Virus record (IMG/VR): IMGVR_UViG_3300038439_000001
Span: 1 to 46,039 of that record
DNA: 46,039 nucleotides
DNA from: a virus
Reading direction: 5' to 3' (one strand)
Made by a program: the position numbers and the translations under genes. Below the pieces are notes generated by a model. The model did not search any database. It was not told the DNA's origin and saw nothing but the letters and a program-made list of their open reading frames with translations. Below, piece after piece: positions 2,757 to 45,760 of this stretch; positions within the stretch are counted from its first letter, which is position 1; the number at the start of each line of letters is the position of its first letter.

Positions 2757-2781
2757 AGTTTATTCAATTTTTAAACGAGAT
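2757..2781. repeat. 25-bp palindrome, degenerate copy
   Basis: Arms AGTTTATTCAA and TTAAACGAGAT with centre TTT. It overlaps the last codons and the TAA stop (2760-2762) of the radical SAM-glycosyltransferase gene. Confidence 0.6.
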
Positions 2782-4862
2782 TGTTTAATCTTATCACGCC
2801 AAGAAAGACCACGAGCGTGAGAAGAACCCTTTTCAAGCTTAATTTGGGTACGGTAGTTGATTATTCCAAGTCCCCATTTCTTGTCCATGTAAGCACGATT
2901 TTTCTTCAATAATGCATCTATATCAAAGCCTTCTTTTTCTTGGATTAAGTTAAAAGTCGAACGACCTTTGTGATAGATGCAAGTGTCAATGGCAAATTCT
3001 GTTTTATATCCAAGCTCACGAGCTGCTATGTTGTAGTCGTTATCGTCCCACATTCCCATATCATAGTTAACATCAAGTAAACCGACTTTATCAATTACTT
3101 CCCTTTTAATTACTGCACAGAGAAAGGCTACGAATGGAGTGGCACAGGTTCGACCAGAATAGTGGGTCTCTAGGTATTGATTAACCTCAGACATAGACAT
3201 AGAAAGTTGATTTGGAACTATAGTATTGTGTAGAGATAGACTATGATGAGAGTCCATCTGTCCATGACCTTGAGGATCAGGCATGGTTAGCGAACCTATA
3301 ATGCCAAGCTTAGGATCACGCTTAAGGATATTAATCATCTTTTCAAGCCATCTATCTGAAACAACTGTGTCGTTGTTGAGGAGGCAGACAAAAGGTGCAG
3401 TTGATGATTGAAGACCTTTGTTTACTGCATTTACGAAACCTTCATTTTTAGACATCTTAATGCTCAAATGAGGCATGTCAGAGATAGTTCGTTCAATATT
3501 TGAACGATCTTTAGATGCATTGTCTACCCAGATTACTTGATAGTCAGTAGTGCAGCGTTTGATACTTTCAAGGCAAGCTATTGTATATTGTTCGTTTTCG
3601 TAAGTAGGAATGATTATGTCGCATTGGGCAGATACTTTGATATTGCCGTCTCCTCTAAGGCCTCTGAGAACAGCATTTATGTAAGTATAGTCTACATCTT
3701 TGACTTTCTGACCATAAGGACAGCGATCGTAGTGGTTACGATCAAGCAATGATAGCCCCTCTTTAATACACTCTTCACCAAGGGAGTTCCCTGGATAAGG
3801 AGTGAAGAAGGCCCAGGAAGGCATTTCAGCTTTGATTGTATCTGCCATTCTTGCAGTTGCTTGAATATCTTCTTTGGTTTCCCAAGGAAGACCAATCATG
3901 TAGTTGGCGTAGATCTTAGCTCCAGCACTGCGAATAATCTTTGCTGACTCAAGATTTTGCTCGACAGTAGTTCCTTTCTTCATCTTATCAAGGATTCGTT
4001 GCGAGCCAGACTCAAAGCCGACTGAGACTAAATCCCACCCAACTTTGACAAGTTTTTGAACTAGGTCTGGATATTTACAGATTCCATCTGCTCTTCCAGC
4101 AGCCCAGAAAGGTAATCCGATTTGAGGGTATTTTTCTATAAATTCTTCAATCCAAGAGGGCTGGATAAGGAAAGTATCATCGTGAATCATGACGCACTCA
4201 GGATGGAGAGTTTCTTTGAGCCACTTTAATTCATTGATCAGTGAATCAACAGAACGCCTTCGTAACTTCTTACCAAAGTGATTGTCTTCAAGGGGTTGAC
4301 AAAAGCCACATTGGTAAGGACATCCTCGTGCAGATGCAACAGAGATCATTTTGGTTAGCTTCCCACCATACCACCAGCCAGCACAGTTTTCAAGACAGTC
4401 TCGATAGATAGTTCGATCAAAGAAAGGAAGCACATCTATATTAAGTGGCTTCTCACCAATGATAGATCGTTCAAATTTTGAACAATCTTGAAGAAACTGA
4501 GGAAAGGTAATTTCACTTTCACCATGGAAGATATAGTCAATATCTGAGTTTTCAATTAACTCATTTGGCGCTGCTGTAACATGATAGCCTCCGACAAGGA
4601 CTTTAGAACCCTGTTCCTTAGCCATATTAACAATCTTCATTCCAATAGGATAGTAGGAACTTTTAAGACCAAAAGCTATTAAATCATATCCTTTGATAGA
4701 TTCTTTCAACTGCTCATCATTGAATAAGATCTTCATATCAAGAAAATCAATATCACAACCTGCATTCTTAGCAACTGTATATGTCATCCCTGCTCCATGA
4801 TCATGCCAGGAATCAAGACCTTGTCCGTTGTAAGGATAGAGTGCGATTAAGAGGGTTTTCAT
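2760..4862 (-). CDS. B12-type radical SAM enzyme fused to GT2 glycosyltransferase
   Basis: A 700-residue two-enzyme fusion. Residues 1-150 resemble a cobalamin-binding-type Rossmann domain (VLVGGYHVTAAP at 88-99). Residues about 170-370 are a radical SAM core with the 4Fe-4S motif C181-x3-C185-x2-C188 and a VGFESGS strand typical of B12-dependent radical SAM proteins. From about residue 411 there is a family 2 GT-A glycosyltransferase (DIIIPTYEN, WVDNAS at 445-450, a metal-binding NND at 496-498). No transmembrane segment is evident. It overlaps the upstream methyltransferase-kinase gene by ATGA, so the two are translationally coupled. Inferred role: making and transferring a modified sugar, on the virion or host surface. 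The substrate is unknown. Two 25-bp palindromes lie inside this gene and a third at its end. Confidence 0.85.
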   Translation of the reverse strand: MKTLLIALYPYNGQGLDSWHDHGAGMTYTVAKNAGCDIDFLDMKILFNDEQLKESIKGYDLIAFGLKSSYYPIGMKIVNMAKEQGSKVLVGGYHVTAAPNELIENSDIDYIFHGESEITFPQFLQDCSKFERSIIGEKPLNIDVLPFFDRTIYRDCLENCAGWWYGGKLTKMISVASARGCPYQCGFCQPLEDNHFGKKLRRRSVDSLINELKWLKETLHPECVMIHDDTFLIQPSWIEEFIEKYPQIGLPFWAAGRADGICKYPDLVQKLVKVGWDLVSVGFESGSQRILDKMKKGTTVEQNLESAKIIRSAGAKIYANYMIGLPWETKEDIQATARMADTIKAEMPSWAFFTPYPGNSLGEECIKEGLSLLDRNHYDRCPYGQKVKDVDYTYINAVLRGLRGDGNIKVSAQCDIIIPTYENEQYTIACLESIKRCTTDYQVIWVDNASKDRSNIERTISDMPHLSIKMSKNEGFVNAVNKGLQSSTAPFVCLLNNDTVVSDRWLEKMINILKRDPKLGIIGSLTMPDPQGHGQMDSHHSLSLHNTIVPNQLSMSMSEVNQYLETHYSGRTCATPFVAFLCAVIKREVIDKVGLLDVNYDMGMWDDNDYNIAARELGYKTEFAIDTCIYHKGRSTFNLIQEKEGFDIDALLKKNRAYMDKKWGLGIINYRTQIKLEKGSSHARGLSWRDKIKQSRLKIE
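3486..3510. repeat. 25-bp palindrome inside a coding sequence
   Basis: Arms AGTTCGTTCAA and TTGAACGATCT, centre TAT. It lies inside the GT2 domain of the radical SAM fusion, where it encodes D-R-S-N-I-E-R-T. The inner six pairs are perfect, with a C-G pair in place of the usual T-A. Confidence 0.85.
4464..4488. repeat. 25-bp palindrome inside a coding sequence
   Basis: Arms AGATCGTTCAA and TTGAACAATCT, centre ATT. It lies between the cobalamin-type and radical SAM domains of the fusion protein, encoding D-C-S-K-F-E-R-S in the same reading frame as the copy at 3486. Confidence 0.85.
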
Positions 4863-5791
4863 AAAGATTCCTTGTTAATCTCTTTAATGTTAGTCCAGCC
4901 ACAATCTCTAAGAAGATCAGCAGCTTTAAGTTTAAAGTCATAGAAACTTAACTCATAACCTTCTATTACTATATCTCTGTTTACATAGCCAGTTAACCAT
5001 GTGTGAAGAGTGTTGATGAAGAAGTCAAGGTATTCATCAAGATAGTGGCCACGTACCAGATTAGCATAGTAAGCAGCTGAAAAAGTTTTATTTGCATCTC
5101 TTGTCAATTCGTTTCTCCAAGCCGCCGCTATATTGTCAGTCATTAGATGTTTGTGATTGAAGTAAGTCTGAGCCAGAGTTGTCTTACCAGTTCCTCCAGG
5201 GCCATAGATGAGAATGGCCTCAGGTAGTGTAGACTTAGGGCCTGAGAGGTGAAAGACATGACGAAGGGAACTGTCAGGACTTATTGTTATACCTTTGTCT
5301 TGGATGCAGGAGAAGTACCTTCCAGCTATGGAGCAGAAAGCTGAGATGGAAGGGATAAAGATGTTTCGGTAAGTGCTAGTGAAGATTGCATCTGGAGATT
5401 CACAGATCCAGAGGTCGCAGATGACTTGTTTGGAACAACGAGCAAAGAGATCAAAGAGATGATTTAGATCTTTGATGTAATGAAGCATGCCTGAAGCCAT
5501 AATAATGTCATAGCATCCATAAATGTCTTCGGCATCTTCACAGCGAAAAGTGAGTTCAGGAAAGATAGAGCTTGCCTGCTTTATAACATCTCGATCTATG
5601 TCAATTCCAGTTACTTGCTTAGCTCCTTGTTGGAGAGCAAGGTAACCTAACATTCCAGTGTTACAGCCACAGTCGAGAACTGTCTTGTCTGTGAAGTCAA
5701 TACCTTGAGTTAGCTGAGCAAACTTAGCAGAAGTATCCATGTCACCTTCTTGGACTACTACACCATCCTTAACTATTCTCTGATAAGGCAC
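4859..5791 (-). CDS. SAM methyltransferase fused to P-loop kinase
   Basis: Class I methyltransferase at the N-terminus: motif I VLDCGCNTG about residues 38-46, a GIDID acidic loop about 62-66, and an MASGMLHY post-motif. A P-loop kinase-like domain follows: Walker A GPGGTGKTT about residues 197-205, then DIVIEGYELS, which resembles small-molecule kinases. I chose the GTG start at 5791 because GGAGG lies 5 bases upstream; a TTG at 5803 would add four residues. It overlaps the radical SAM-glycosyltransferase gene by ATGA. Inferred role: modifies (methylates and phosphorylates) a sugar or similar small substrate together with that neighbour. Neither substrate can be read from the sequence. Confidence 0.75.
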   Translation of the reverse strand: MPYQRIVKDGVVVQEGDMDTSAKFAQLTQGIDFTDKTVLDCGCNTGMLGYLALQQGAKQVTGIDIDRDVIKQASSIFPELTFRCEDAEDIYGCYDIIMASGMLHYIKDLNHLFDLFARCSKQVICDLWICESPDAIFTSTYRNIFIPSISAFCSIAGRYFSCIQDKGITISPDSSLRHVFHLSGPKSTLPEAILIYGPGGTGKTTLAQTYFNHKHLMTDNIAAAWRNELTRDANKTFSAAYYANLVRGHYLDEYLDFFINTLHTWLTGYVNRDIVIEGYELSFYDFKLKAADLLRDCGWTNIKEINKESL

Positions 5792-5804
5792 TATAGCCTC
5801 CAAA

Positions 5805-5829
5805 AGTCCGTTTAATGATTAAATGAACT
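5805..5829. repeat. 25-bp palindrome
   Basis: Arms AGTCCGTTTAA and TTAAATGAACT, centre TGA. It fills the spacer between the holin-like gene and the methyltransferase-kinase gene. Confidence 0.7.
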
Positions 5830-6415: not shown

Positions 6416-6984
6416 CTACAAGGACTCTACATTTGACTCTTCTGCTATGTCTATCACCACTCCACTCTCTCTTGCAGCCGCAATTCCTCGATTTTTGAAA
6501 CCCTCAATTTCATCTTTTGTTAATATTGTAGAAATATGAGAACTTTGAATCTTTGTTGGAGATTTAAGCCCAGACAACTCAAGCACAACTGTATCAGCTA
6601 CATCTTTACGATCTTTTAAAGTAGCTTCACCTAACTCATTATCAAAAATCTCATGATAAACTTGAAAGGCCTTGGCTGTAAGGACACGAATTTTCTCATA
6701 ATTTTTTTCGCTTCGTCATCTCTTTCTTGACGAATTTCTGAAAGTTTAGCTTTTCCAAGATCTGAATTAACAGTTTGAGATACACAGGCTGGAGTAACGC
6801 CTACAATTTCAGCTACTAAATTATGATTAAGGCCTTGAGAGACTAAATTAAGTATCTCATGGTTGCGTTGCCAGAGTTGTTTAATATTATAGCATTTACG
6901 ATCTTCGCTTCTACGATTATCTACATCTCTAAATTCAAGACCGTAAAGACCGTCTCTTCTTTGAACATCTACTTGTCCGTCCAT
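6416..6984 (-). CDS. Small terminase subunit-like protein, interrupted by a -1 frameshift
   Basis: The frame from ATG 6984 reads an HTH region (LWQRNHEILNLV... VAEIVGVTPACVSQTVNS, about residues 37-74) and then a helix, and stops early at 6631 in an unrelated tail. A -1 shift at a run of seven A residues (6702-6708 on the complement) restores a coherent continuation (NYEKIRVLTAKAFQVYHEIF...) to a TAG at 6416-6418, about 189 residues in all. The combination of an N-terminal HTH, an oligomerisation helix and a C-terminal 'TKDEIE' segment resembles phage small terminase subunits, which recognise packaging sites and hand DNA to the large subunit. The shift could be a sequencing or assembly indel, slippage on A7, or a real mutation. 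It is the first gene of the leftward unit, with a promoter at 7011-7039. Confidence 0.65.
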
Positions 6985-7064: not shown

Positions 7065-7089
7065 AGATTGTTTATGGTTTAAACGATCT
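7065..7089. repeat. 25-bp palindrome in the divergent control region
   Basis: Arms AGATTGTTTAT and TTAAACGATCT, centre GGT. It lies between the leftward promoter (7011-7039) and the rightward promoter (7194-7221). Confidence 0.75.
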
Positions 7090-7827: not shown

Positions 7828-7852
7828 AGATCGTTTAACCATTAAACGGTCT
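7828..7852. repeat. 25-bp palindrome in the origin-like region
   Basis: Arms AGATCGTTTAA and TTAAACGGTCT, centre CCA. It lies about 40 bases before the 7-bp iterons. Confidence 0.85.
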
Positions 7853-8242: not shown

Positions 8243-8267
8243 AGATCGTTTAAAATTTGAACGATCT
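8243..8267. repeat. 25-bp palindrome in the origin-like region
   Basis: Arms AGATCGTTTAA and TTGAACGATCT, centre AAT. It lies between the inverted repeat and the gene at 8335, with a GATC in each arm. Confidence 0.9.
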
Positions 8268-9144: not shown

Positions 9145-9219
9145 ATGGAAGGTTTAGTTTTAGTCTTAATGTTAGTACTTGCAGTTATTTGGACTTTGTG
9201 TGAATATAAGAATGATTAA
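9145..9219 (+). CDS. 24-residue membrane microprotein
   Basis: MEGLVLVLMLVLAVIWTLCEYKND: one transmembrane helix with a short charged tail. A good GAGGAG ribosome site lies about 8 bases upstream. The TAA stop overlaps the 25-bp palindrome at 9218. Function unknown. Confidence 0.5.
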   Translation: MEGLVLVLMLVLAVIWTLCEYKND

Positions 9220-9242
9220 TTCGTTTAATGTTTGAACGATCT
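9218..9242. repeat. 25-bp palindrome
   Basis: Arms AATTCGTTTAA and TTGAACGATCT, centre TGT. It begins within the stop codon of the microprotein gene. Confidence 0.8.
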
Positions 9243-9802: not shown

Positions 9803-9827
9803 AGATCGTTTAATTGTTAAACAAACT
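9803..9827. repeat. 25-bp palindrome
   Basis: Arms AGATCGTTTAA and TTAAACAAACT, centre TTG. It lies in the spacer before the gene at 9845. Confidence 0.85.
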
Positions 9828-11685: not shown

Positions 11686-11710
11686 AGATCGTTTAATCGT
11701 TAAACGATCT
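11686..11710. repeat. 25-bp palindrome, perfect copy
   Basis: Arms AGATCGTTTAA and TTAAACGATCT, centre TCG: a perfect 11-bp dyad with a GATC in each arm. It lies just downstream of a predicted promoter, where an operator would be. Confidence 0.95.
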
Positions 11711-13095: not shown

Positions 13096-13539
13096 ATGGG
13101 AGATATAGCTGATGATTTAATTCAGGACGGTATTGACTATATGATAGAAGAAAGAGCGTCACTTAAAGAGATATGTAATGTATTAGAAGATAAAAAAACT
13201 AAAGGAGGAAAATCCATGAACAGAACTTTTTACATAGCCGGAGTACAGTTTAGACCAAAAGAGGATATTAACAAGAATATGAAGTGTATTGAGGTAGGTG
13301 ATATATTAGAATTAATTCCAGAACCTGAAAACAAATTTGACCCTAACGCTGTTAAGATATGTTATGAAGATCTTGAAAACCCAGATATCATTCATCTAGG
13401 TTATGTACCTAAAAAGTTTAGTGCTGAGGTAGCTGCATTACTTGAAGCTGATATTTACCTTGAATGTATTGTAGAGGAGATTAATCCAGCTGCAAAACCC
13501 TGGGAAGTCTGCAAAGTAATCATTAGAGATACTCAATAG
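13096..13539 (+). CDS. HIRAN-domain protein
   Basis: 147 residues. The C-terminal part (from residue 41) is a HIRAN domain: FYIAGVQFRP, LELIPEPENKFDPNAVKI and LGYVPKKFSAEVA. HIRAN domains bind DNA 3' ends or stalled forks in repair enzymes; stand-alone forms occur in phages and bacteria. Residues 1-40 (MGDIADDLIQDGIDYMIEE) look like the start of another small family. A very strong AAAGGAGG site precedes the in-frame ATG at 13216, so a 107-residue HIRAN-only product is probable, as well as or instead of the long form. Confidence 0.8.
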   Translation: MGDIADDLIQDGIDYMIEERASLKEICNVLEDKKTKGGKSMNRTFYIAGVQFRPKEDINKNMKCIEVGDILELIPEPENKFDPNAVKICYEDLENPDIIHLGYVPKKFSAEVAALLEADIYLECIVEEINPAAKPWEVCKVIIRDTQ

Positions 13540-13575: not shown

Positions 13576-13998
13576 ATGAGTAGAAGATTTTATTGTGCAG
13601 AATGTGGTAAAGTACTTATAGTTTCAAGAAAGGCATTGCCTAAGTATGCAACTATTATTGATGTAGTAGAAGTTCACAAGTGTTCTAAGGAACCTATAGA
13701 GTTTGATCTTGAGCCAGTTATTGACTATTCTCAGTTAGCTAGGAAAGACGGAAAGTTCGTTAAAAAATTAAACGATCTTAACCCACCTGCAGCTAAGGGA
13801 ATATTTGGAGGGGTTAGTACCGAAGATCTTCGAGATCGTAGGTTTGATTCAGGGCCTGCGCTAACTAAGATAAATAAAGAGTCTCCCAAATCTACTGCAC
13901 CTAAATCTATCCTCAACATAATTGAGCAGATGGAACTAACCAATACTCCAGAGAATTCTATAAACGACTCAGAAAGTGAGGAGCTAAATAATGGCTAA
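13576..13998 (+). CDS. Zinc-ribbon-like phage protein
   Basis: 140 residues. The N-terminus has C7-A-E-C10 and a later HKC (C36), like a zinc ribbon with one cysteine missing. The rest is low-complexity and polar, probably disordered (PKSTAPKS..., ENSINDSESEE). A 25-bp palindrome is embedded at 13754-13778 and encodes K-F-V-K-K-L-N-D-L. The stop overlaps the next gene's start by 8 bases. Similar small finger proteins are common in environmental phages; function unknown. Confidence 0.65.
   Translation: MSRRFYCAECGKVLIVSRKALPKYATIIDVVEVHKCSKEPIEFDLEPVIDYSQLARKDGKFVKKLNDLNPPAAKGIFGGVSTEDLRDRRFDSGPALTKINKESPKSTAPKSILNIIEQMELTNTPENSINDSESEELNNG
13754..13778. repeat. 25-bp palindrome inside a coding sequence
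   Basis: Arms AGTTCGTTAAA and TTAAACGATCT, centre AAA. It is read as K-F-V-K-K-L-N-D-L, the same frame as the copy inside thyX (K-F-V-Q-Q-L-N-N-L). Confidence 0.85.
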
Positions 13999-18647: not shown

Positions 18648-19156
18648 TGAACTGGGACAATTACTTCCATTCTATATGTACTGCAGTCTCATCAAAGTCT
18701 CCTTGTCTATCTCGTAAGATAGGTGCTATTCTTGTAAAAGATCATTCAATAGTTTCAACAGGATACAATGGGCCTTCAAGAGGTATTCCACACTGTGGAC
18801 ATGAGAGAATGATGAAAGATACTACCTTTGATTTAGTACCAGCAAGTATAAGAAAACCTAGATTTAAGACTGAATGTCCTCGCAAAGTTCTTGGCTATCC
18901 ATCTGGCACTCACATGGAACTTTGCCCTGCCCAACACGCAGAATCAAATGCTATCACCAACGCTGCCCGTCTTGGTGTATCAGTGCTTAACTCAACATTA
19001 TACTTAAACTGTGTAATTCCTTGTAAAAACTGTTTCGGTATGTTAATCAATGCTGGGGTTAAAGAAATAGTAGTTAATGATTATACTGTCTATGATAAAC
19101 ATACACAGTTTTTAATTGAAAATTCTGACATTACAATAAGATCGTTTAATTTATAA
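18647..19156 (+). CDS. dCMP/deoxycytidylate deaminase
   Basis: 169 residues with the zinc cytidine-deaminase fold. The catalytic H-A-E lies in CPAQHAESNAI and the second zinc site in VIPCKNCFGML. N-terminal SRKIGAILVKDHSIVSTGYNGPSRG is typical of dCMP deaminases. A cysteine-containing insertion lies between (CGHERMM...TECPRK). It makes dUMP from dCMP, feeding thymidylate synthesis by the ThyX encoded at 23892. The last residues RSFNL and the stop are supplied by the palindrome at 19139. Confidence 0.9.
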   Translation: MNWDNYFHSICTAVSSKSPCLSRKIGAILVKDHSIVSTGYNGPSRGIPHCGHERMMKDTTFDLVPASIRKPRFKTECPRKVLGYPSGTHMELCPAQHAESNAITNAARLGVSVLNSTLYLNCVIPCKNCFGMLINAGVKEIVVNDYTVYDKHTQFLIENSDITIRSFNL

Positions 19157-19163
19157 ACGAACT
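19139..19163. repeat. 25-bp palindrome at a gene 3' end
   Basis: Arms AGATCGTTTAA and ATAAACGAACT, centre TTT. It encodes the last residues and TAA stop of the dCMP deaminase. Confidence 0.85.
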
Positions 19164-19174
19164 GGAGGTTACTT

Positions 19175-19354
19175 ATGGAACTTATGGATGATTATAGAGG
19201 ATGGGAATTTATATTAGTAACTGAAGAGCATCAAAAGAAACTAAATCAGTGGAGACATAAGTATTATATTAGAATATTTAATATAATTCAAGCTGAATCT
19301 GGATTAAGTATTTTATTAGCTAGAAAGGAGATAAGAAATGAATGTGGAATATAA
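19175..19354 (+). CDS. 59-residue unknown protein
   Basis: MELMDDYRGWEFILVTEEHQ, then KKLNQWRHKYYIRIFNIIQAE and ILLARKEIRNECGI. Pattern: beta strand, linker, 'LNQWRHKYY' helix, hydrophobic strand. It resembles a short family in environmental phages. ACTGGAGG precedes the ATG. It overlaps the next gene by 17 bases. Confidence 0.6.
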   Translation: MELMDDYRGWEFILVTEEHQKKLNQWRHKYYIRIFNIIQAESGLSILLARKEIRNECGI

Positions 19355-19586
19355 GCCTCGTTTTAGTTTTGAAATAACTGAGGAGCAACGCCTTCGTGCT
19401 AATAAGTGTTTCCCCACCTATGGTTTACGCAAAGCCGTATTTGGTAGAGTCTTAGATGAAGTATGTGAACTTATCGAAGCTCATGGTGGGATGGCTATAG
19501 GAATAATGATGAGTGGAAAAGTTAAACTTAAAGAGATTATCCCTGTAATGCAAGAGGTTGAGTCTTATACAAAGGATGGAGGTTAA
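19338..19586 (+). CDS. Small unknown phage protein
   Basis: 82 residues: FSFEITEEQRLRANKCFPTYGLRKAVFGRVLDEVCELIEAHGGMAIGIMMSGKVKLKEIIPVM. The N-terminal helix and 'YGLRKAVF' look like a short DNA-associated helix-turn-helix or ribbon-type protein; this pattern recurs in phages but has no known function. AAGGAG lies eight bases before the ATG. Two bases separate it from the next gene. Confidence 0.7.
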   Translation: MNVEYKPRFSFEITEEQRLRANKCFPTYGLRKAVFGRVLDEVCELIEAHGGMAIGIMMSGKVKLKEIIPVMQEVESYTKDGG

Positions 19587-19588
19587 CT

Positions 19589-19804
19589 ATGGCCGACCTA
19601 AACGACTTTGACTATACATCTATTCTCGATATGAGTAATGATGAGGCTATTGATACACTTCGACAGATTCGTTTATCAAGACGAATCCCTGAGAAGAAAA
19701 CAACTACACGAATATCCACTAAACAAATACACACAAAAACAATAGCTACTATCGATGCTAATATGGCAGCTAATTTATTAAAAATCCTGGAGGGAAACAA
19801 ATGA
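19589..19804 (+). CDS. Small unknown phage protein
   Basis: 71 residues. An acidic N-terminus (DLNDFDYTSILDMSNDEAIDTLRQIRLSRRIPEKK), a basic Thr/Lys-rich linker and a final helix (MAANLLKILEGNK). The two-helix-plus-linker layout recurs before ParB-methyltransferase genes in related phages, as far as I recall. It overlaps the ParB-methyltransferase start by ATGA, so the two are coupled. Confidence 0.65.
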   Translation: MADLNDFDYTSILDMSNDEAIDTLRQIRLSRRIPEKKTTTRISTKQIHTKTIATIDANMAANLLKILEGNK

Positions 19805-21132
19805 TCTCAGTTGGTAAAGTAGGCATGATAGATACTAATAGTATTATAGTTGCCAATGATAGGGCTAGAGAGATAATGGGAGACTTAGATGGAACTGAAG
19901 CTAATATGAAAGAGATAGGTTTAACAACTCCATTAACAGTTAGGGATAATGGAGATGGAACATTTACACTCCTAGCTGGTGAGAGAAGATATAGAATTCT
20001 TCAACGAAATGAAGTTCCTAAAATTCCTGTACGTATATACGAACATGATCTTACTGAACTTGAAATGAAGATCATTGAAAAGTCTGAGAACTTCTTTCGT
20101 AAAGATATGGAGTTCTGGGAGTTAGATAAACTAACCCTTGAAATTCATAGAATGCAACAATCTATTCATGGAACAAAGGCACCAGGGCCTGGACATTCTG
20201 GATGGTCTACAGAAGATACAGGTAATATGTTAGGTGGGGTTTCAAAAGCTACTATATCCCTTGCCATCAAACGTGCTGAGTTGAGAGAACAACTACCAGA
20301 AGTATTTGAAGGATGTAAGACAGCATCTGATGCTTCTAATATCATTAAGAAGATGGACGAAGCGTTGGTAAAGCAAGTGATTGCCAAACAACTTGAGTCA
20401 AAGACAGATAATAAACTATTAAGTCAATTATCAAAGTGTTTTATTATCAAGGATTTTTTTGAAGGTGTAAAGGAAATACCTGCTGGAGCATTTCACTTAG
20501 TTGAAATAGACCCTCCGTATGGAATAAATTTAGATGGTTCAAATGTAGGTAGTTCTGCTAAGAAAAACTATACTTATTCAAGTTCTTATAACGAAGTAAG
20601 TGTTACTGAATATCAAGAATTTATTTCAAATGTTTTAAAAGAGTGTTATCGAGTAATGGCTGATCACTCCTGGTTGTTATGCTGGTTTGCACCAGAACCT
20701 TGGTTTGCAACTTTATACAATGAGCTTATTCAAGCAGGGTTTGAAACAACTCGTATGTGTCCTATATGGACTAAGCACTTTGGACAATCCAAAAGACCAG
20801 AAATGCACTTGGCAAATAGTTATGAGATATTCTTCTATGCATGGAAAGGAAGACCAGCTATGAGTAAACCAGGTAGAGCAAATGAGTTTAACTTTCCACC
20901 TGTCCCACCTCAGCAGAAGTCTCATCCTACAGAACGCCCTGTAGAATTGATGAAAGAAATATATGAGACGTTTGCCTTTCCAGGTTCTCGCATCTTAATT
21001 CCATTTCTTGGTTCAGGTAGTGGACTTATAGCTGCACATCAGGCTGGAATGTCAGCCATAGGATTTGAACTATCACAGTCTTATAAGAATAGTTTTCTTG
21101 TAAAAGTTCATGGGATGTCTGGAGGTAAATAA
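19801..21132 (+). CDS. ParB-like domain + HTH fused to DNA methyltransferase
   Basis: 443 residues. Residues 10-90 are a ParB/Srx-type domain with A-G-E-R-R-Y-R at 59-65, the box that binds CTP in ParB. Residues about 138-160 (TGNMLGGVSKATISLAIKRAE) are a ParB-type helix-turn-helix. From 215 on is an amino-methyltransferase: E-I-D-P-P-Y-G around 235-241, and a C-terminal FLGSGSGL SAM loop, i.e. motif IV before motif I (beta class, N6-adenine or N4-cytosine). Predicted to methylate phage DNA, with site choice through the ParB/HTH part. Its target is unknown; the 25-bp palindromes, most of which carry GATC, are candidates. Confidence 0.85.
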   Translation: MISVGKVGMIDTNSIIVANDRAREIMGDLDGTEANMKEIGLTTPLTVRDNGDGTFTLLAGERRYRILQRNEVPKIPVRIYEHDLTELEMKIIEKSENFFRKDMEFWELDKLTLEIHRMQQSIHGTKAPGPGHSGWSTEDTGNMLGGVSKATISLAIKRAELREQLPEVFEGCKTASDASNIIKKMDEALVKQVIAKQLESKTDNKLLSQLSKCFIIKDFFEGVKEIPAGAFHLVEIDPPYGINLDGSNVGSSAKKNYTYSSSYNEVSVTEYQEFISNVLKECYRVMADHSWLLCWFAPEPWFATLYNELIQAGFETTRMCPIWTKHFGQSKRPEMHLANSYEIFFYAWKGRPAMSKPGRANEFNFPPVPPQQKSHPTERPVELMKEIYETFAFPGSRILIPFLGSGSGLIAAHQAGMSAIGFELSQSYKNSFLVKVHGMSGGK

Positions 21133-21165: not shown

Positions 21166-21190
21166 AGTTCGTTCAATTTATAAACGATCT
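21166..21190. repeat. 25-bp palindrome
   Basis: Arms AGTTCGTTCAA and ATAAACGATCT, centre TTT. It lies in the spacer just after the ParB-methyltransferase gene. Confidence 0.85.
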
Positions 21191-21406: not shown

Positions 21407-23917
21407 ATGAGACGAACTTCCGTCCCACCTTCTGGAGACATCAATGCTAAACTAGCTGGATGTGGTGAGCAGCCTGGATTTGAAGAAATTCGTGCTCGTC
21501 CTCCTAAACCTTTCGTAGGCTCTGCTGGTCGAGGTCTTGATGAATGTCTAATTATGACTAAGATTCCACGCAGTTCTATATATCTAACTAATGTAATCAA
21601 AGATCTAGACGCTCCACTCAAACATTATATAGACATAGACACTCGTGGTAAGTGGACTATACACCCAGAAGGATATGAATATATAAAGGAGCTTGGTGAA
21701 GAGCTTAAGCAACTTAATCTTAATTGTATCATAGCTTTTGGTAATATAGCTTTGCTTGCTCTAACTAATCGTGTAGGGATTACAAAGTGGAGGGGTTCAG
21801 TTCTTGAATCCACCTTGGTTCCTGGACTTAAAGTCCTTCCTACATTTCACCCTGCTACATTTATCCCACCTAAATTCAACTTTCTCAACAAACCTATAAT
21901 ATGCGAAGATTTAATGAGGGCTAAATATGAATCTACATTCAAGGCAATCAACCGAACTGCTCGCAATGTCACTATTCTACCAACTTTTAACGAGACCATC
22001 TCAACCCTTAACCATTGTATCAGCATCGGAAGATCAGGTCAAATCATTGCTATTGACATTGAAGTCATTAATGGAGAAGTGGACTGCATATCCTTTGGGT
22101 GGTCTCCAAGTGAAGCAATCTCAATTCCCTTCAGGTATCAAAACGGAGATTACTTTAATCTAGACGAAGAACTTGCGATTATGTATCTGGTTGCGAAAAT
22201 TATTCAAGATGATAACATTGCAAAGGTAGGTGCTAACTTCATATTTGATACTCAGTTTCTATTCCATAAGTATGGAATCATTCCTCGTGGTGAACTACAC
22301 TGTACTCAAATTGCACAGAAGATTGCTTATCCAGATTTTCCTGCTGGCCTTGATGCAGTTACTACAATGCACACTGATATTCCATACTATAAACAAGACG
22401 GTAAACAATGGATGAAGATGCAGGGAGGCTCATGGGAGAGTTGGTGGAACTATAATGGTATGGATGCTATTGTTCCAGTTGAGGCTCACCATAAACAAAT
22501 GGAGGTGCTTCGTAAGCAAGGTAATGAGGAAACTTATGAGCGACAAAGAAAACTAATTAAGCCTTTAATCTATATGTCAGAACGTGGGATTAAGATTGAT
22601 GTTCAAGGCATGATGGAATATAATGATGAACAGCAGAATACTTTGGATATACTATCTGAAGAATTAAACTCAGAAGTAGGTTATGAAATTAACTATAATT
22701 CACCAAAACAACTAATGGAATATTTCTATAAAAAACTTGGTTTCAAACCTTATAAAAAGAAGAATACTCAAGGTCAGTATAATGAAAGCATAGACGTTGA
22801 TGCTCTTAAACGACTTGCAAGACAAGGTGTAAAAGCTGCTAGAATTATGTTAGATATTCGTGGATTAAGTAAACGTATTTCAACTTATTTAAATATAGGA
22901 AAGGTGGATAAAGATGGGAGATATAGAAGTTCATATAATCCCGTTGGTGCTGAGACAGGTCGTCTCAGTTCTGGAGAGACTATCTTTGGAACTGGAGGTA
23001 ATCAACAAAACTGGCCTCACGACCTACTTAGATTTTTCTTATTTGATGAAGGTTATATTGGATACTCATTCGACCTCAGCCAAATTGAGAATAGAATTGT
23101 TGCCTACGTGGGAGGAGTCATCTCTCAAATCCAAGCCTTTGAACAAGGAATAGACCTTCACCGTCTAACAGCCTCAATCATCTTTGGCAAACCATATGAC
23201 CAGATATCAGATGAAGCGGGTTCATCAACTTTAGGTGATGGTCGTCAGAGTGAGAGGTACTGGGGTAAGAAGGGAAATCATGCTGTTAACTATGATGTTG
23301 GATATAAAAAATTTGCATTAGTTAACGAACTGACTGAAGTAGATGCTAAACATACTCTTGAGAATATTCACCAAGGCTATCCACAAATCAGAGGAGGTTA
23401 TCATATTCTCATTCAAAATATGCTTAAGACGAATAGAACTGTAACCAATCTATTTGGTCGGACTAGATTATTCCTAGGCCCTGTATTTCCATCTTATCCC
23501 AACGTATCTCAATATGCTTGTGACGATACTTATCGACAAGCCTATGCACACCTTCCACAGAGTACTTGTGCTGATAAGATCAATGAACAGGGAATTGAGT
23601 ATGTCTATTACAATCAAGATCTTTTCAAACCAATAGAATTACTTGCACAGATACATGACTCGAAAGTTTTTCAAATTCCTCTGACAATACCTTGGGAGCA
23701 TCACGCTGAGATGATATTAAAGATTAAACAATCTCTTGAGACACCTTTGATCTGGCATGGAAATGAGATTAAAACTCCAGTTGATCTATCAATAGGGTTT
23801 AGTATGTGTAAGAAAGATATGAAAGAAATTAAAAGTAAAGATATTCCAACTAATCCTGCTATCTTAGCAGAGAAGCTAAAGGAGACATACGATGAAATTA
23901 GTAAAGCCAAGTTTTGA
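21407..23917 (+). CDS. Uracil-DNA-glycosylase domain fused to family A DNA polymerase
   Basis: 836 residues. Residues 1-170 are a family 4/5-like UDG domain: G-E-Q-P-G (20-24), PFVGSAGRGL (35-44), an IIAFGN strand and PTFHPATF (about 147-154). Next is a 3'-5' exonuclease (IIAIDIEV, VGANFIFDTQFL, WWNYNGMDAIV), then the polymerase: TGRLSSGE, motif A DLSQIENRI (about 555), motif B RYWGKKGNHAVNYDVG and motif C IHDSK (about 750). It replicates the phage genome with proofreading. The UDG part may recognise uracil or excise it near the fork. A similar fusion is, to my knowledge, known from phage SPO1-type polymerases. Confidence 0.88.
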   Translation: MRRTSVPPSGDINAKLAGCGEQPGFEEIRARPPKPFVGSAGRGLDECLIMTKIPRSSIYLTNVIKDLDAPLKHYIDIDTRGKWTIHPEGYEYIKELGEELKQLNLNCIIAFGNIALLALTNRVGITKWRGSVLESTLVPGLKVLPTFHPATFIPPKFNFLNKPIICEDLMRAKYESTFKAINRTARNVTILPTFNETISTLNHCISIGRSGQIIAIDIEVINGEVDCISFGWSPSEAISIPFRYQNGDYFNLDEELAIMYLVAKIIQDDNIAKVGANFIFDTQFLFHKYGIIPRGELHCTQIAQKIAYPDFPAGLDAVTTMHTDIPYYKQDGKQWMKMQGGSWESWWNYNGMDAIVPVEAHHKQMEVLRKQGNEETYERQRKLIKPLIYMSERGIKIDVQGMMEYNDEQQNTLDILSEELNSEVGYEINYNSPKQLMEYFYKKLGFKPYKKKNTQGQYNESIDVDALKRLARQGVKAARIMLDIRGLSKRISTYLNIGKVDKDGRYRSSYNPVGAETGRLSSGETIFGTGGNQQNWPHDLLRFFLFDEGYIGYSFDLSQIENRIVAYVGGVISQIQAFEQGIDLHRLTASIIFGKPYDQISDEAGSSTLGDGRQSERYWGKKGNHAVNYDVGYKKFALVNELTEVDAKHTLENIHQGYPQIRGGYHILIQNMLKTNRTVTNLFGRTRLFLGPVFPSYPNVSQYACDDTYRQAYAHLPQSTCADKINEQGIEYVYYNQDLFKPIELLAQIHDSKVFQIPLTIPWEHHAEMILKIKQSLETPLIWHGNEIKTPVDLSIGFSMCKKDMKEIKSKDIPTNPAILAEKLKETYDEISKAKF

Positions 23918-24596
23918 AATCATGGAGATTATGGGAATGTCTAAAAATGTAGATGAAGCTGATGGACGAGATGCACTTGAGTTAATTGAGCGAGCTGGAA
24001 GAACTTGCTATAAATCTGAGGATAAGATAAATCCACTTCAATATACCTGTATTAAATTTGTTCAACAATTAAACAATCTTGGACATGAATCAGTTATTGA
24101 ACATTCAGCTATGACTGTTAAATTTATCTGTGATCGTGGAGTTTCACATGAACTGGTGAGACATAGACTATGTGCCTTTAGTCAGGAGTCAACAAGATAT
24201 TGCAACTATAAAGGTGGAGTAACTTTTGTAATTCCTCCTTGGATATCTATTCCAGAGGGAGAATATAGCTACAGGTTTGTAGAGGGATTATGTTTCTTTG
24301 AGCCACCTTCAATAATTGATATAGGAGATGAATGGGCATCTAGTATGGCATATAGTGAGCAGGCATATACTACCCTTGTTTTAGAAGACGGCTGGACTCC
24401 TCAACAAGCTCGTTCTGTTCTACCTAATTCACTCAAAACTGAGATCGTAGTTACGGCAAACTTTCGTGAGTGGAGACATATATTCAAGCTTCGTTGCGCT
24501 CCACCTGCTCACCCTCAGATGCGTGAGATAATGACTCCCCTTCATAAAAAATGTAAGGAACTTGTTCCTATAATCTTTGATGACATTATCTACTAA
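23892..24596 (+). CDS. thyX: Flavin-dependent thymidylate synthase ThyX
   Basis: 234 residues with the ThyX motif R90-H-R-L-C-A-F-S-Q-E-S-T-R-Y (RHRxxSx7S class), preceded by ESVIEHSAMTVKF and followed near the end by ANFREWRHIFKLR. It makes dTMP from dUMP using FAD, NADPH and methylene-tetrahydrofolate. Together with dCMP deaminase (18647) it gives the phage its own thymidylate route. It overlaps the polymerase end by 26 bases. A 25-bp palindrome is embedded at 24055-24079 (K-F-V-Q-Q-L-N-N-L). Confidence 0.92.
   Translation: MKLVKPSFEIMEIMGMSKNVDEADGRDALELIERAGRTCYKSEDKINPLQYTCIKFVQQLNNLGHESVIEHSAMTVKFICDRGVSHELVRHRLCAFSQESTRYCNYKGGVTFVIPPWISIPEGEYSYRFVEGLCFFEPPSIIDIGDEWASSMAYSEQAYTTLVLEDGWTPQQARSVLPNSLKTEIVVTANFREWRHIFKLRCAPPAHPQMREIMTPLHKKCKELVPIIFDDIIY
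24055..24079. repeat. 25-bp palindrome inside thyX
   Basis: Arms AATTTGTTCAA and TTAAACAATCT, centre CAA. It falls in the conserved N-terminal helix of ThyX, before the ESVIEH segment. No GATC is present in either arm. Confidence 0.7.
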
Positions 24597-25796: not shown

Positions 25797-25946
25797 ATGA
25801 CTAAAAAAGAAAAGATGAAATACCAAGTTAGAGAAAAAGAATGCTATAGTAGAGAATGCTTTATGCCATTCTCTGGTAATGGAATTAAAATCTGTAGATT
25901 GTATGAATTAGGGAGGTGTCCTAAGAAGTATAGATCGTTTAATTAA
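25797..25946 (+). CDS. 49-residue four-cysteine zinc-binding protein
   Basis: MTKKEKMKYQ VREKECYSRE, then a finger with cysteines at 16, 21, 33 and 41 (ECYSREC ... KICRLYELGRCP). A short zinc knuckle, possibly nucleic-acid binding. The end R-S-F-N and the stop codon come from the 25-bp palindrome at 25932. It is the last gene of the rightward unit. Confidence 0.6.
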   Translation: MTKKEKMKYQVREKECYSRECFMPFSGNGIKICRLYELGRCPKKYRSFN

Positions 25947-25956
25947 TAAACAATCT
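25932..25956. repeat. 25-bp palindrome at the convergence point
   Basis: Arms AGATCGTTTAA and ATAAACAATCT, centre TTA. It lies where the rightward and leftward units meet. It contains the stop of the + strand gene and two bases of the stop of the - strand gene, so it is placed as a bidirectional end element. Confidence 0.9.
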
Positions 25957-28900: not shown

Positions 28901-31822
28901 TTTTTTAGTTTTCTTAAGCTTCTTTAATTCATTTATCCTCTTTACAATATTAACAAGGTCAGTCTTTGTCTTCTTCACTAACCTTGCAATCTCTATAGGG
29001 TCTATTCCTGTATAGAGTTTAGTTCCTTCAGTAGACTGCATAAAATTAGAATCACCTCTTAGACCCTTAGGATAATTTATTATACCTTCATCACCTAACA
29101 TATACTCAAGCGTCTCCCAAGGAGGTTCAGTCTTCCTCTGCTCAGGGGTCATCTTCATCCTTTTCTCACTCAACCTAGCTTCCAGCTCACCAGGATCTTT
29201 CATGTAAGATTCGAATGGAGTATCTTCACCAAAGAATATCTCAGATATTTTTTCGTACTCACTTACACTTATTCTTTCAGCTTTTTCAAATATAGGATCA
29301 ACAAGAGTTCTAAGGGATACAGTCTTATTAGATCCTTGCCATATATTTATAGCTGCGTCAATCTCCTTTATTATTTTTGAGTCTTTAGCTACTTTTTTCA
29401 TCTTGGATAAGATTGTAGAAGTTCTGATTATTTCTTGTGCCTCAGGACTACTCCCTCTAAACTTTGACTCCATTATATCATTTACAGCATGTTGAACTTC
29501 ATGAACTATAATATCTTTTTCAGGGTATTTTACAGTTATTATTTTGCCTCCAGCACTATATTGTCCTAAATTTTCTTTCATCTCCTTAACTATTATCTTA
29601 AGATTTCTAAGTTCAGGGACTGCATCAAACAGAGTAGGATGGCTTACAACTTCAGTTAGGTCATGCACTTCCCGATCTAGTAGTTCAGGCTTAACCTTAA
29701 GTCCTTCATCTCCTATCTCATACCTCCACTTTCTATCCCTCCCTAACCAATAGCCAGTTGCGTCAAATACTTCTTTATTCCTATACAACACATTTCCAAC
29801 TGTAGTTTTAATCCCCTTTAAAACATCTTTAACCATACTAGGGATTTGATCTACAGGGATCATCATGTTGAGTTGGACACCACCAGTTTGTTTAACAATT
29901 AAACGATCTGCTTCTCTCGCCCACTTTGCCGCCTCACTAACTGTATCTTTCCAAATGTTAAAGTCATTAGTCTCAGCAAAGTGTCTGCTTAGTTCATCTG
30001 CCCTTGTAGACATATCACTTAATCTATCTTTAATCTCATTAATAGAAACCTTCTCACCATTTAGCCATCTATTAACTTCATTAATTAAATAACGAGTATA
30101 GGTCTCAGGTGAGCTCTCTACACTTTTAATCTTTTCAGTAAACAACTTATTCATTGTATCAGTATGCTTTATATTCTTATCACGAAATGGGCTGGATTCA
30201 GTATCTAATTCCTTAGGTCGTAGAGTTCCAGTTAATTCATCTAGTTTAGTAATCTCTAATATTTCCTTAGCAGCTTCTTCAATATCCATCTTTCTCTGAA
30301 TTCTTTTCTTCTCTTTAATATAATCTCCAGGTTTTATTTCTTTGTTGTCAAGCTTAGTTTTTAATGTAGATAGTTCGTCTGCTTTGTTAGGAATAGTTAC
30401 AGTATCTTTAGGTTTAACTATACTCTCCTCAATAAACTCAAGGCCTGTTTTTGTAACAGGCTCAACTGCTTCAGGTTCAGGTTCAACTAATTCCTTAGCC
30501 TTAGCTACCTTAGCCTTCTTAACCTTCTCCCCTTTAATCTTTAGATCTTCCTTGACAACTTCCTCTATATCAACTTTATCAACTATCTCTTTCTTTGCTG
30601 CTAGCTCAGCTTGTATATCTTCTATCTCAGTAATTCTTGTCTTAGCTTTCTCAATCATGTTAGGCTCAATAGATGGAATATCTTTATCTTCCACAACTTT
30701 AGTCTCAACCTTGCCAGATGTAGTAGGCATAACTGGAGTTAGCTTAAAATCTGTTCCTGTATATGGAGTAGGTGGAGGTTTTGATGATGGAGTATAGTTA
30801 AAGGCTGATTCTAGACCTTTGGCTTCTATAGATTTAGTAATAGATTCAACAGCAGCCTTAGCAGCACCTCTTGTACCCTTAACACCTATATGCAGTCCTT
30901 TAGCTCCAATAAAGAATGTTATGAGTTCTTCATAAGGCATTCCGACAAGCTCAGGTCTTCCACCTGCCCATTTGATAAATTCATGTGCCATAGACTGCTC
31001 AAATAATTTTCTTGCAGGAGAAGCTACATATGTATGAGCTAACTCGAAAGGTATCCCTAATATATAGCCTCCTGCTTTTGCTAAGAAAGCTCCTTCTTCA
31101 GTATAAGGCTGATAGGTTGTAAGTGATGCTCCTCGCTCAGATAGTTCACGTGCCTCATCTTCAGACATTCCTTGAGCCATATAGGTGTATTTGGTAGCTA
31201 AGGCTGCCATAGTACTCATTATTCCTGAACCTAACGACATTGCTGCTTCAGGTATAGCAACTGCATTTTTACCTATCTTAGTCCATATAGGGTGTTCTTT
31301 AGTTACTTTAGTAAAAGCTTCATACAGATCACCACCAACCTCTGCAGCCTTAACACCTAAACTATCTGCTATAGCTGTAGTTCTAGTATATACCCTATTA
31401 GATATATCTGAAACTGCTTTACGTAACTCAGTTGATAATGAAGGAGTTTTATAAGGCACTCCTCCTTCATCTAAAGGTTCACCCTTCTTACCAAACCCCC
31501 CAGGAGGTTTAGGAGCCTCTAAAGTATCTAATGACTGCCCAGGAATCAAAGGAACAAGCCAAGGAGATTGACCTAGTTCAAAGTAGTTCCTAAGTGCATT
31601 AAGTCTCTGCTGTTCAATCTTAGCAGATTCAGGATCTATATTAGATGCACTAATATCAATCATATGTCTAGGAGGTTTAGGTTGAACTTGAGGATCTTCA
31701 TTTAAAAACTCAAGTCCAGTTATAGCCTCTGGAGATACTATAGATGGAGGCTGAGGCTGAGATTGACTCCTATCCTGAATATTATTTTGTTTATCATCTA
31801 AAAACTCAAGCCCTGTAGACAT
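25955..31822 (-). CDS. Giant internal virion protein with HExxH metallopeptidase motif
   Basis: 1955 residues. The N-terminus has a short repeated motif T-G-L-E-F-[LI] (residues about 3, 35 and again near 460) spaced by disordered P/Q/E-rich sequence. A zinc-peptidase motif H-E-V-Q-H occurs near residue 773. Downstream is a long helical region; FATGINQAFALRNLPRDAMQAWF resembles LPD38-like parts of large polyvalent phage proteins. Such proteins are packaged and injected with DNA to open the envelope or protect the genome. It is the last and largest late gene. A 25-bp palindrome is embedded at 29885-29909. I see no lytic domain. Confidence 0.75.
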   Translation of the reverse strand: MSTGLEFLDDKQNNIQDRSQSQPQPPSIVSPEAITGLEFLNEDPQVQPKPPRHMIDISASNIDPESAKIEQQRLNALRNYFELGQSPWLVPLIPGQSLDTLEAPKPPGGFGKKGEPLDEGGVPYKTPSLSTELRKAVSDISNRVYTRTTAIADSLGVKAAEVGGDLYEAFTKVTKEHPIWTKIGKNAVAIPEAAMSLGSGIMSTMAALATKYTYMAQGMSEDEARELSERGASLTTYQPYTEEGAFLAKAGGYILGIPFELAHTYVASPARKLFEQSMAHEFIKWAGGRPELVGMPYEELITFFIGAKGLHIGVKGTRGAAKAAVESITKSIEAKGLESAFNYTPSSKPPPTPYTGTDFKLTPVMPTTSGKVETKVVEDKDIPSIEPNMIEKAKTRITEIEDIQAELAAKKEIVDKVDIEEVVKEDLKIKGEKVKKAKVAKAKELVEPEPEAVEPVTKTGLEFIEESIVKPKDTVTIPNKADELSTLKTKLDNKEIKPGDYIKEKKRIQRKMDIEEAAKEILEITKLDELTGTLRPKELDTESSPFRDKNIKHTDTMNKLFTEKIKSVESSPETYTRYLINEVNRWLNGEKVSINEIKDRLSDMSTRADELSRHFAETNDFNIWKDTVSEAAKWAREADRLIVKQTGGVQLNMMIPVDQIPSMVKDVLKGIKTTVGNVLYRNKEVFDATGYWLGRDRKWRYEIGDEGLKVKPELLDREVHDLTEVVSHPTLFDAVPELRNLKIIVKEMKENLGQYSAGGKIITVKYPEKDIIVHEVQHAVNDIMESKFRGSSPEAQEIIRTSTILSKMKKVAKDSKIIKEIDAAINIWQGSNKTVSLRTLVDPIFEKAERISVSEYEKISEIFFGEDTPFESYMKDPGELEARLSEKRMKMTPEQRKTEPPWETLEYMLGDEGIINYPKGLRGDSNFMQSTEGTKLYTGIDPIEIARLVKKTKTDLVNIVKRINELKKLKKTKKATKEHTVELTELYNRHKELIAEQEEYTLESKKLSEASDDATTQAIADLKAREPYTQASIIKLADAHNKGMKKAVEMKEFNIKEATKLLRRKFTASFAERSGTTRRLLAKDDRGYEAMSSMYMARGGHPKAFRVFEQMRKEVDGGLSADEKFIKNGLIRDLRILDIVKYKTPKQFTPPADATPQMAAMYTTMFRSKEINKIRDLTPEEAHRLYHVREDGTVGGRVGAYFDWMRKAVKDAYEEGLLSEQEMKDLTSHNYKKTRLVVEDIFDRKNEIKVGGKKLSVYDSGIERLAKGKTTDIYELDSNVVALETFNTLYSRIFKNRANRDIYDLAIEEKENSFARVKQSKGDKIPENFRHYTTDVFIDGKKKTIFLSDDIGPEWIMSNAQVTYKYAQFMRYASFSPLVKTFATGINQAFALRNLPRDAMQAWFTSRVLRPEKSKVFGRFQSVYSPTLPIAAYQLGKHYSKIFKDAALRRGTFDDYIDDGGGMELLTPQGRLLFHGKHLEPASEAFYKFAGYLGTTSEILGRMSIKNKVIETRAKEKGISFEEAYKDKKIRKEATFAARDYMDFSQGGDIVKALDNAIPFLNAKLVAMRGFIRAWKDQPVVSAYKLTQFAALVTGLYLGNQELHPDTMKDLKGDRRTQGNLVFPLGDMFGFKDSMNDTRYPFIMIPINQDMRFFKTLFEGGVDWMTGEEVDTERIGQAWRDLSPVEVTTLPPTVSGALGYATNKDFWLGKDIVPKAHDYRLPKILTGEETGSSEEEWDKDTPQVAKDIGKVTSMSPERLKYLMGQLITNDNMYAQLLGKAYEGAFGDLPQKDREATLAESLSKVPVIKAFFGITNPYSKFADTLQQAKDKAEIDNFIETRGLDIRVDAYLIDNTMDRVDVVNYIREFKNKDIEDKLMKDFKFQEYTKDLSNRYFWTGLKRIPDIRRRAEVYVKRLDASNEKEFQQLMDEVTIVTRAGGIFSKEFNDEVARVRSGQ
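29885..29909. repeat. 25-bp palindrome inside the giant virion gene
   Basis: Arms AGTTTGTTTAA and TTAAACGATCT, centre CAA. On the coding (minus) strand it reads D-R-L-I-V-K-Q-T, the same frame as the copies at 3486 and 4464. It is identical to the intergenic copies at 36029 and 39906. Confidence 0.9.
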
Positions 31823-34052: not shown

Positions 34053-34077
34053 AGATCGTTTAATGATTAAACAATCT
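34053..34077. repeat. 25-bp palindrome at a gene 3' end
   Basis: Arms AGATCGTTTAA and TTAAACAATCT, centre TGA. It supplies the last codons (K-I-V) and stop of the acetyltransferase-like gene and leaves a short gap before the next ribosome site. Confidence 0.9.
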
Positions 34078-36028: not shown

Positions 36029-36053
36029 AGTTTGTTTAACAATTAAACGATCT
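36029..36053. repeat. 25-bp palindrome
   Basis: Arms AGTTTGTTTAA and TTAAACGATCT, centre CAA. It lies in the spacer between the structural genes at 36072 and 34510, just before the 29-residue frame. Confidence 0.9.
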
Positions 36054-38681: not shown

Positions 38682-38706
38682 AGATTGTTTAATTGTTAAA
38701 CGAACT
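38682..38706. repeat. 25-bp palindrome before the capsid gene
   Basis: Arms AGATTGTTTAA and TTAAACGAACT, centre TTG. It lies just upstream (on the minus strand) of the capsid ribosome site. Confidence 0.85.
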
Positions 38707-39905: not shown

Positions 39906-39930
39906 AGTTTGTTTAACAATTAAACGATCT
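39906..39930. repeat. 25-bp palindrome at a gene 3' end
   Basis: Arms AGTTTGTTTAA and TTAAACGATCT, centre CAA. Its end provides two bases of the TAG stop (39929-39931) of the gene at 39929. Confidence 0.9.
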
Positions 39931-43968: not shown

Positions 43969-43993
43969 AGTTTGTTTAATGTTTAAACGATCT
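43969..43993. repeat. 25-bp palindrome at a gene 3' end
   Basis: Arms AGTTTGTTTAA and TTAAACGATCT, centre TGT. It supplies the last codons (K-I-V) and stop of the XhlA-like gene, exactly as the copy at 34053 does for its gene. Confidence 0.9.
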
Positions 43994-45735: not shown

Positions 45736-45760
45736 AGTTCGTTTAATAATTAAACAATCT
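45736..45760. repeat. 25-bp palindrome before the terminase
   Basis: Arms AGTTCGTTTAA and TTAAACAATCT, centre TAA. Located between the tailspike C-terminal frame and the large terminase gene. Neither arm contains GATC. Confidence 0.85.

Follow-up and report, generated by a model that had tools for sequence, protein, structure and literature searches.

Phage genomes can carry short sequences that recur at many dispersed places, and the locus described here raises the question of which protein recognizes such sequences and for what purpose. The DNA is a virus record of 46,039 bp (IMG/VR record IMGVR_UViG_3300038439_000001; "the window" below means this whole stretch). An initial annotation proposed that one of its genes, encoding a ParB-like protein with an attached methyltransferase, might be the partner of the many palindromes in the same DNA. 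Fusions of the ParB-CTPase fold with an N6_N4 methyltransferase are described as frequent in phages in a PNAS paper of 2025, where an anti-defence role is suggested and some of the fusions are stated to bind ATP (PMC12704722). A full-text search of the literature returned no described DNA sites for ParB-methyltransferase fusions.

The ParB-methyltransferase protein and its surroundings

The annotated combination of a GERRYR box, a ParB-type helix-turn-helix (HTH) and a methyltransferase in one chain is borne out by profile matches and by structural modelling (Table 1). PF02195 (ParB_N) scores 34.1 bits (cut-off 26.3) over residues 27-93 and PF01555 (N6_N4_Mtase) 78 bits (cut-off 26.7) over residues 232-430 of the 443-aa protein, and an AlphaFold2 model (mean pLDDT 83.1) places the HTH, with helices 137-143 and 149-164, between the two domains. 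The GERRxR and ENxxR boxes of the ParB_N nucleotide-binding fold are present, as are the beta-class N6/N4 methyltransferase fold and its catalytic DPPY and FxGxG motifs, in the order IV...I. Among 55 aligned relatives, residues G60, R62, R63, E96 and N97 of ParB_N and D237, P239, Y240, G404, S405 and G406 of the methyltransferase are invariant; the homologue in the Desulfofustis phage, which stands outside the 55, has DFPY where the others have DPPY.

Profile comparisons match the N-terminal half to Noc (E 9.2e-16), Spo0J and ParB, and weakly to KorB (8qa8, E 2e-5), and the C-terminal half to M1.HpyAVI (DpnA), CcrM and RsrI. Foldseek searches with the model returned Noc (7nfu, E 1.8e-9) and KorB (8qa9, E 3.1e-8). 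The methyltransferase half aligns with M.BceJIV (Z 24.5, 210 residues, rmsd 2.3), and the folds of M.BceJIV, CcrM and RsrI have Z of 24.5-21.6 among the matches listed; since this half filled the Z-score (VIA) list, the absence of ParB from it is meaningless. The canonical ParB model TIGR00180 reaches 33 bits in this protein, below its cut-off of 58.45. Furthermore, the C-terminal dimerisation domain of ParB and Noc is absent, residues 205-440 being methyltransferase fold, and 42 of 42 records have a single ParB_N match each. The protein is probably an orphan ParB-type DNA clamp in which an N6/N4-class DNA methyltransferase has replaced the C-terminal dimerisation domain.

Table 1. Coordinates of the ParB-methyltransferase gene, its coding segments and the palindromic sites in the window.
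Feature	Position	Strand	Remark
ParB_N - HTH - N6/N4 DNA methyltransferase, one chain	19801..21132	+	443 aa
ParB_N nucleotide-binding domain, residues 27-93, with GERRYR box 60-65	19879..20079	+	PF02195
Helix-turn-helix, residues 137-164; recognition helix 149-164	20209..20292	+	AlphaFold2 model
Codon of K149, start of recognition helix, best palindrome tracker	20245..20247	+	covariation
N6_N4_Mtase domain, residues 232-430, DPPY 237-240	20494..21090	+	PF01555
Palindromic site	2757..2781	.	3 mismatches, weakest of 22
Palindromic site	3486..3510	.	
Palindromic site	4464..4488	.	
Palindromic site	5805..5829	.	
Palindromic site	7065..7089	.	
Palindromic site	7828..7852	.	
Palindromic site	8243..8267	.	
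Palindromic site	9218..9242	.	
Palindromic site	9803..9827	.	
Palindromic site	11686..11710	.	
Palindromic site	13754..13778	.	
Palindromic site	19139..19163	.	between stop codon and next Shine-Dalgarno
Palindromic site	21166..21190	.	directly 3' of ParB-methyltransferase gene
Palindromic site	24055..24079	.	within thyX
Palindromic site	25932..25956	.	convergent gap
Palindromic site	29885..29909	.	within 1955-aa ORF
Palindromic site	34053..34077	.	
Palindromic site	36029..36053	.	
Palindromic site	38682..38706	.	upstream of major capsid gene
Palindromic site	39906..39930	.	
Palindromic site	43969..43993	.	
Palindromic site	45736..45760	.	upstream of large terminase gene

The neighbours of the gene are replication genes, encoding a Sak4-like ATPase, a UDG-PolA fusion, ThyX and a primase; in the product of 21407-23917 (+), a uracil-DNA-glycosylase domain precedes the DNA polymerase A part within a single chain. 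Two small genes lie directly upstream, at 19338-19586 (+) and 19589-19804 (+). The 82-aa product of the former looks ribbon-helix-helix (RHH)-like by eye; it occurs in 49 of the 51 sequences searched below and has no PHROG match and none above cut-off in NCBIfam. Elsewhere in the window, two ORFs at 6416-6984 (-) make up a TerS-like HTH protein that relatives encode in a single ORF, the split being due to either a frameshift or an assembly error. A HIRAN-domain protein at 13096-13539 (+) matches PADLOC PDC-M03B candidates. At 2760-5803 (-), a B12-binding/radical SAM/glycosyltransferase fusion (700 aa) adjoins a protein with methyltransferase and NTPase-like stretches, and these are likely modification or cargo genes.

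Dispersed palindromes in the window and in related phages

The 25-bp palindrome AGWTYGTTYAANNNNTWAACRAWCT, with the half-site version AGATCGTTTAAT, has 43 strand matches at up to three mismatches, equivalent to 22 sites across the whole window (all of those listed in Table 1), compared with a mean of 0.19 and a largest value of 2 strand matches in 100 dinucleotide shuffles. One site starts 34 bp past the stop codon of the ParB-methyltransferase gene, so that the annotated abundance of palindromes and the position of one directly after the gene both stand. The sequence GATC, which had been noted in most of the palindromes, is indeed inside 17 of the 22 sites, but as a common element it had to be ruled out: the sites of 16 out of 48 related genomes all lack it, and over the whole window it is not enriched (158 occurrences against 208 expected under a Markov model).

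Co-occurrence of the gene and the palindrome was surveyed in 50 records, picked as relatives of one or the other, of which 46 have the window-type palindrome and 27 the gene. Of the 20 records of at least 29 kb, 14 have at least 11 palindromes, and the gene is present in every one of these. Where two or more palindromes occur without the gene, the record is a fragment no longer than 28,115 bp, and two such fragments, inspected closely, end beside the expected position of the gene; two further records without it (G022 and G031) have a single, chance-level match each. Palindromes in phages lacking the gene, which would have spoken against a partnership, were thus not found. The opposite combination, the gene without the window-type palindrome, occurs in G003, G004, G005 and the Desulfofustis phage.

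A de novo search for symmetric motifs covered 51 sequences, 49 with the gene and two fragments cut beside it. In 50 of them the motif scored above 92, the maximum among 51 Markov nulls, and the architecture of the window's palindrome was found directly in 48, with 8-24 sites each. G060, G066 and G077 needed a second, less uniform look; the first had given a simple repeat in G060, a doubtful motif in G077 and, in G066, a score of 90, under the null maximum of 92. On the second look, G060 (28 sites) and G077 (third-ranked, with just five sites) gave the odd 25-bp architecture, and G066 (16 sites) gave a variant with an even centre. All three are excluded from the counts of site positions; the covariation analysis excludes G066 and G077 and uses an earlier 17-site motif for G060. 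With these three included on the second look, every one of the 49 gene-bearing sequences has its own dispersed palindrome family.

The geometry of the palindrome is usually kept between families and the letters differ. Examples of the half-site versions are AGTTAATTAAAT (G057), AGACCCATTAAA (G050), AGTTCGATCCAA (G056), ACTATGTTCAAT (G075) and GCTATGTCCCAA (Desulfofustis phage). The outer AG (CT in a second group) and the spacing are constant, and positions -8 to -3 are variable. Phages with distant ParB-methyltransferases (22-24% identity), namely Mel-JY34, VS-ABTNL-3 and ctMlz233, have no palindrome family of this architecture. Other even-centred candidates score above a single null shuffle in Mel-JY34 and ctMlz233; that of ctMlz233 (L409) is GGTTTAC..GTAAACC, with 14 sites and a score of 160 (null 68).

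The placement of 765 sites over 48 genomes was assessed with approximate gene calls and with some near-duplicate genomes kept in. Intergenic sites number 493, compared with 57.6 expected, and the other 272 were called inside genes, some of them probably falsely. In tandem gaps the site begins 1 bp (median) after the stop codon of the preceding gene, and its end lies 17 bp (median) ahead of the following start codon, as though wedged between stop codon and Shine-Dalgarno sequence. Sites are held by 438 of 993 tandem gaps (++ 226/525, -- 212/468), 69 of 146 convergent gaps and 37 of 143 divergent gaps. A site lies within 150 bp after the ParB-methyltransferase gene in 30 of 46 genomes, and the gap after Sak4 holds one in 20 of 47; individual positions turn over, so coverage is maintained while the places change. 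In the 30 genomes longer than 40 kb, the coefficient of variation (CV) of site spacing is 0.60 compared with 1.04 for random gene boundaries, being lower in 30/30 and under the 5% point in 25/30 (Wilcoxon p 1.9e-9), and the longest site-free gap averages 5.8 kb compared with 10.3 kb. Relative to uniform random positions, the CV is 0.60 against 0.92 (29 genomes).

Covariation of proteins with the palindrome sequence

Half-sites that vary phage by phage on a constant frame provide a natural test for the binder. Fifteen proteins common to these phages were aligned. For 42 dereplicated genomes out of 47, the distance between the motifs of each two genomes was then set against the difference between them in each of 4,672 nine-residue segments. 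Without correction the motif tracked every protein about equally (r 0.51-0.73), and this version was replaced by one in which a cubic fit to the composite distance of eight control proteins is removed to correct for relatedness. A ranking by single motif positions was left unused, since deep-branch columns from other proteins prevail in it at positions -11, -12, -5 and -2 of the motif.

In the corrected comparison, the best of the 4,672 segments is ParB 147-155 (VSKATISLA), with r 0.392 against a background mean of -0.017 (sd 0.104), a value reached in 0 of 5,000 permutations. Ranks 2-5 are taken by the ParB segments starting at 143-146, and column 149 of ParB ranks first among 4,406 single columns. 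The ParB protein as a whole has r -0.110 after correction, so only its recognition helix tracks the motif. The next segment overall after those of ParB is MCP 307-316, in the capsid protein (r 0.364).

The result was followed through different subsets and controls. With AG-group genomes alone, r rises to 0.603 and the ParB helix is still first, as it is when neighbour genes serve as controls or when the set is limited to genomes with the capsid gene. Structural proteins as controls put ParB 126 on top and the helix sixth, after four ParB segments at 122-126 and one of Sak4; when genomes with Q149 or those with D/G149 are left out, it is second or third, behind capsid segments. Capsid segments rank first in two of five such tests, for no apparent reason other than chance. 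Because the recognition helix out-tracks any other segment of the 15 shared proteins, the ParB-methyltransferase is very probably the binder of the palindromes, and the partnership put forward as hypothetical in the initial annotation is well supported by the sequence covariation.

The consensus bases at positions -7 and -6 follow residue 149 closely: K occurs with GT in 21/21 genomes, P in 7/7 and I in 2/2; D occurs with AT in 4/4 and G in 1/1; H occurs with GG in 2/2; and Q149 accompanies A at -6 in 5/5. As residue 149 was chosen for its top rank, this table is a description and not a second test. On a tree built without ParB 120-165, there are five independent pairs for Q149, with A at -6 in all five, and three for D/G149, with A at -7 in all three; the sign tests per trait give p 0.0625 and 0.25, numbers for which 0.05 is out of reach. 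Held-out loci (15 rows) have GT with K149 in 7/9, the exceptions being L004 and L223, and the single D149 row is AT. Rows for which there was no prior rule have N (two rows) with AT and one unclear, T with GT, R with GG and S with CT. The misses all fall below the null maximum of 136 in motif score, as do 4/8 of the agreeing K/D rows.

The parS site is GTTTCAC-GTGAAAC, and the distances from the dyad of its base 1 and of position -7 here agree within half a base pair. Residue 149 corresponds by eye to the published ParB/Noc specificity residue 173, judging from the preceding Ser and the start of the helix. According to Jalal et al. 2020, Caulobacter ParB R173 versus Noc Q173 decides base 1, with Q173 reading adenine, and specificity in Noc/ParB likewise resides in the residue that opens the recognition helix, some 7 bp away from the dyad (PMC7383237). 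Here Q149 goes with A at -6, one step inward, so the register is not identical with that of ParB/Noc. From the covariation we strongly infer that residue 149 recognizes the bases at -7 and -6, counted from the dyad.

Possible functions and relation to known systems

We consider it most probable (roughly 60%) that a ParB-type clamp loads at about 20 parS-like sites and brings its methyltransferase over the phage's own genome. A dimer of the protein would read the 25-bp palindrome with both HTHs, positions -7 and -6 being recognized by residue 149. By homology with ParB, Noc and KorB, binding of NTP would then close the N-domains round the DNA, and the dimer would leave the site and slide. From some 20 loading sites, evenly placed ~2.7 kb apart in intergenic gaps, such clamps could reach the whole phage genome, and the tethered methyltransferase would modify the phage's own DNA along their path. 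Sites that are even, genome-wide and indifferent to promoters fit a whole-genome clamp better than an operator set. The even spacing is observed, and the purpose of whole-genome reach is something that we infer: most simply, the modification might protect the DNA from host restriction or tell phage from host DNA. Given the attached methyltransferase, self-marking of the phage genome would be the simplest purpose, and coating, clustering or silencing are possible. More tentative is the proposal that this would be self-marking of a new kind, in which the clamp delivers the methyltransferase and the loading sites, not the short motif of the methyltransferase, choose the DNA to be modified.

Other readings of the same sites have to be weighed. 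A regulator comparable to KorB or to a stoperator-binding repressor, with sites that block or silence phage transcription and a methyltransferase that is secondary or regulatory, appears unlikely. KorB of plasmid RK2 is a ParB-family CTPase clamp whose OB operators lie away from target promoters (PMC11790492), and its structure 8qa8 is a weak profile match of the phage protein. Cluster A mycobacteriophages have more than 20 dispersed stoperators, many in short intergenic gaps (PMC9283540), much as the sites here lie between stop and start. However, divergent, promoter-bearing gaps least often hold a site and convergent gaps do so about as often as tandem ones, and operators tied to target promoters were not found with these approximate gene calls and unmapped promoters; nor is even spacing expected of gene control. 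Stoperators are described as asymmetric, orientation-dependent sites of a monomeric repressor that serve temperate-phage immunity (PMC9283540), whereas the palindromes have dyad symmetry, a tyrosine integrase was found in 0/43 records, and a named relative is predicted to be strictly lytic (PMC10370329). Membership of the ParB family could also suggest a partition (centromere) system of a plasmid-like prophage, which we regard as very improbable. Phages such as P1 and N15 do use centromere sites; here, ParA over cut-off is present in 0/43 records (two weak matches), and the sites are even over the whole genome and not at one locus.

It is equally improbable that another DNA-binder, such as the RHH-like protein or TerS, binds the palindromes and that the ParB-methyltransferase is unrelated to them. 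The RHH-like gene occurs in the same 49 sequences as the ParB gene, so co-occurrence cannot separate the two. Covariation does speak against it: the best segment of the RHH-like protein ranks 77 of 4,672 (r 0.226), or 467 without the CT-type genomes, its N-terminal strand PRFSFEIT is nearly constant while the palindromes vary widely, and the best segment of TerS ranks 36. As inverted repeats at gene ends, the sites might instead be RNA or DNA hairpins (terminators, processing sites or cruciforms) and not protein sites. At variable half-site positions, the two halves agree in 1,303 of 3,224 cells, compared with 1,582 (sd 24) in shuffles, 0/500 of which were as low (48 genomes, 765 sites), and G-T and A-C mismatches are about equally common (514 and 529). 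Agreement below chance means that perfect hairpins are avoided, which speaks for selection against perfect symmetry and leaves the hairpin reading with hardly any credibility.

The whole-genome clamp that we favour has much in common with Noc/NBS of Bacillus and chromosomal ParB/parS, which likewise combine a ParB_N fold, an HTH and a dyad-symmetric site. The phage protein differs in ending with a methyltransferase where those proteins have a C-terminal dimerisation domain, and in having no ParA; the phage site differs in being longer (25 bp), with a conserved outer AG/CT and an even spread over the whole genome. The fused methyltransferase and the avoidance of divergent promoter gaps also set it apart from KorB. 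Like the protein here, the fusions of the PNAS paper unite both Pfam domains in a single phage chain, whereas the sites, the HTH code and the genome-wide spacing are described here and not in the available part of that text (PMC12704722).

Another parallel is offered by Corndog, a cluster O mycobacteriophage with 34 dispersed 17-bp palindromes (TGTTCGG-NNN-CCGAACA) and a ParB-like protein, gp90; it is described as lacking integrase and parAB (PMC4351075). As in the window's phage, its half-site reads G at position -7 and TT at -6/-5. A Corndog-like IMG/VR record (that behind L341, 72,658 bp) contains 42 copies at up to one mismatch, and the Corndog-like phage has one ParB-like ORF without methyltransferase (L394 289-1848, -); it differs in the C-terminal part of this protein and in uneven spacing (CV 0.97). 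Among seven IMG/VR records with several Corndog palindromes, only one has a ParB_N match and the others have 3-8 sites without a ParB homologue, so the parallel, and with it a link between the Corndog palindromes and gp90, stays a lead.

For ParB-methyltransferase fusions, these analyses propose a target set and a readable residue-to-base code from sequence alone. They also suggest ParB-like proteins as candidates where cultured phages, such as Corndog, have dispersed palindromes without an explanation. Should the clamp indeed carry the methyltransferase, DNA modification would be targeted in a new way, and ParB clamps would have a use beyond segregation. With a separate recognition code in each phage lineage, the marks of such a clamp would fall on the genome of its own phage and spare those of host and rivals.
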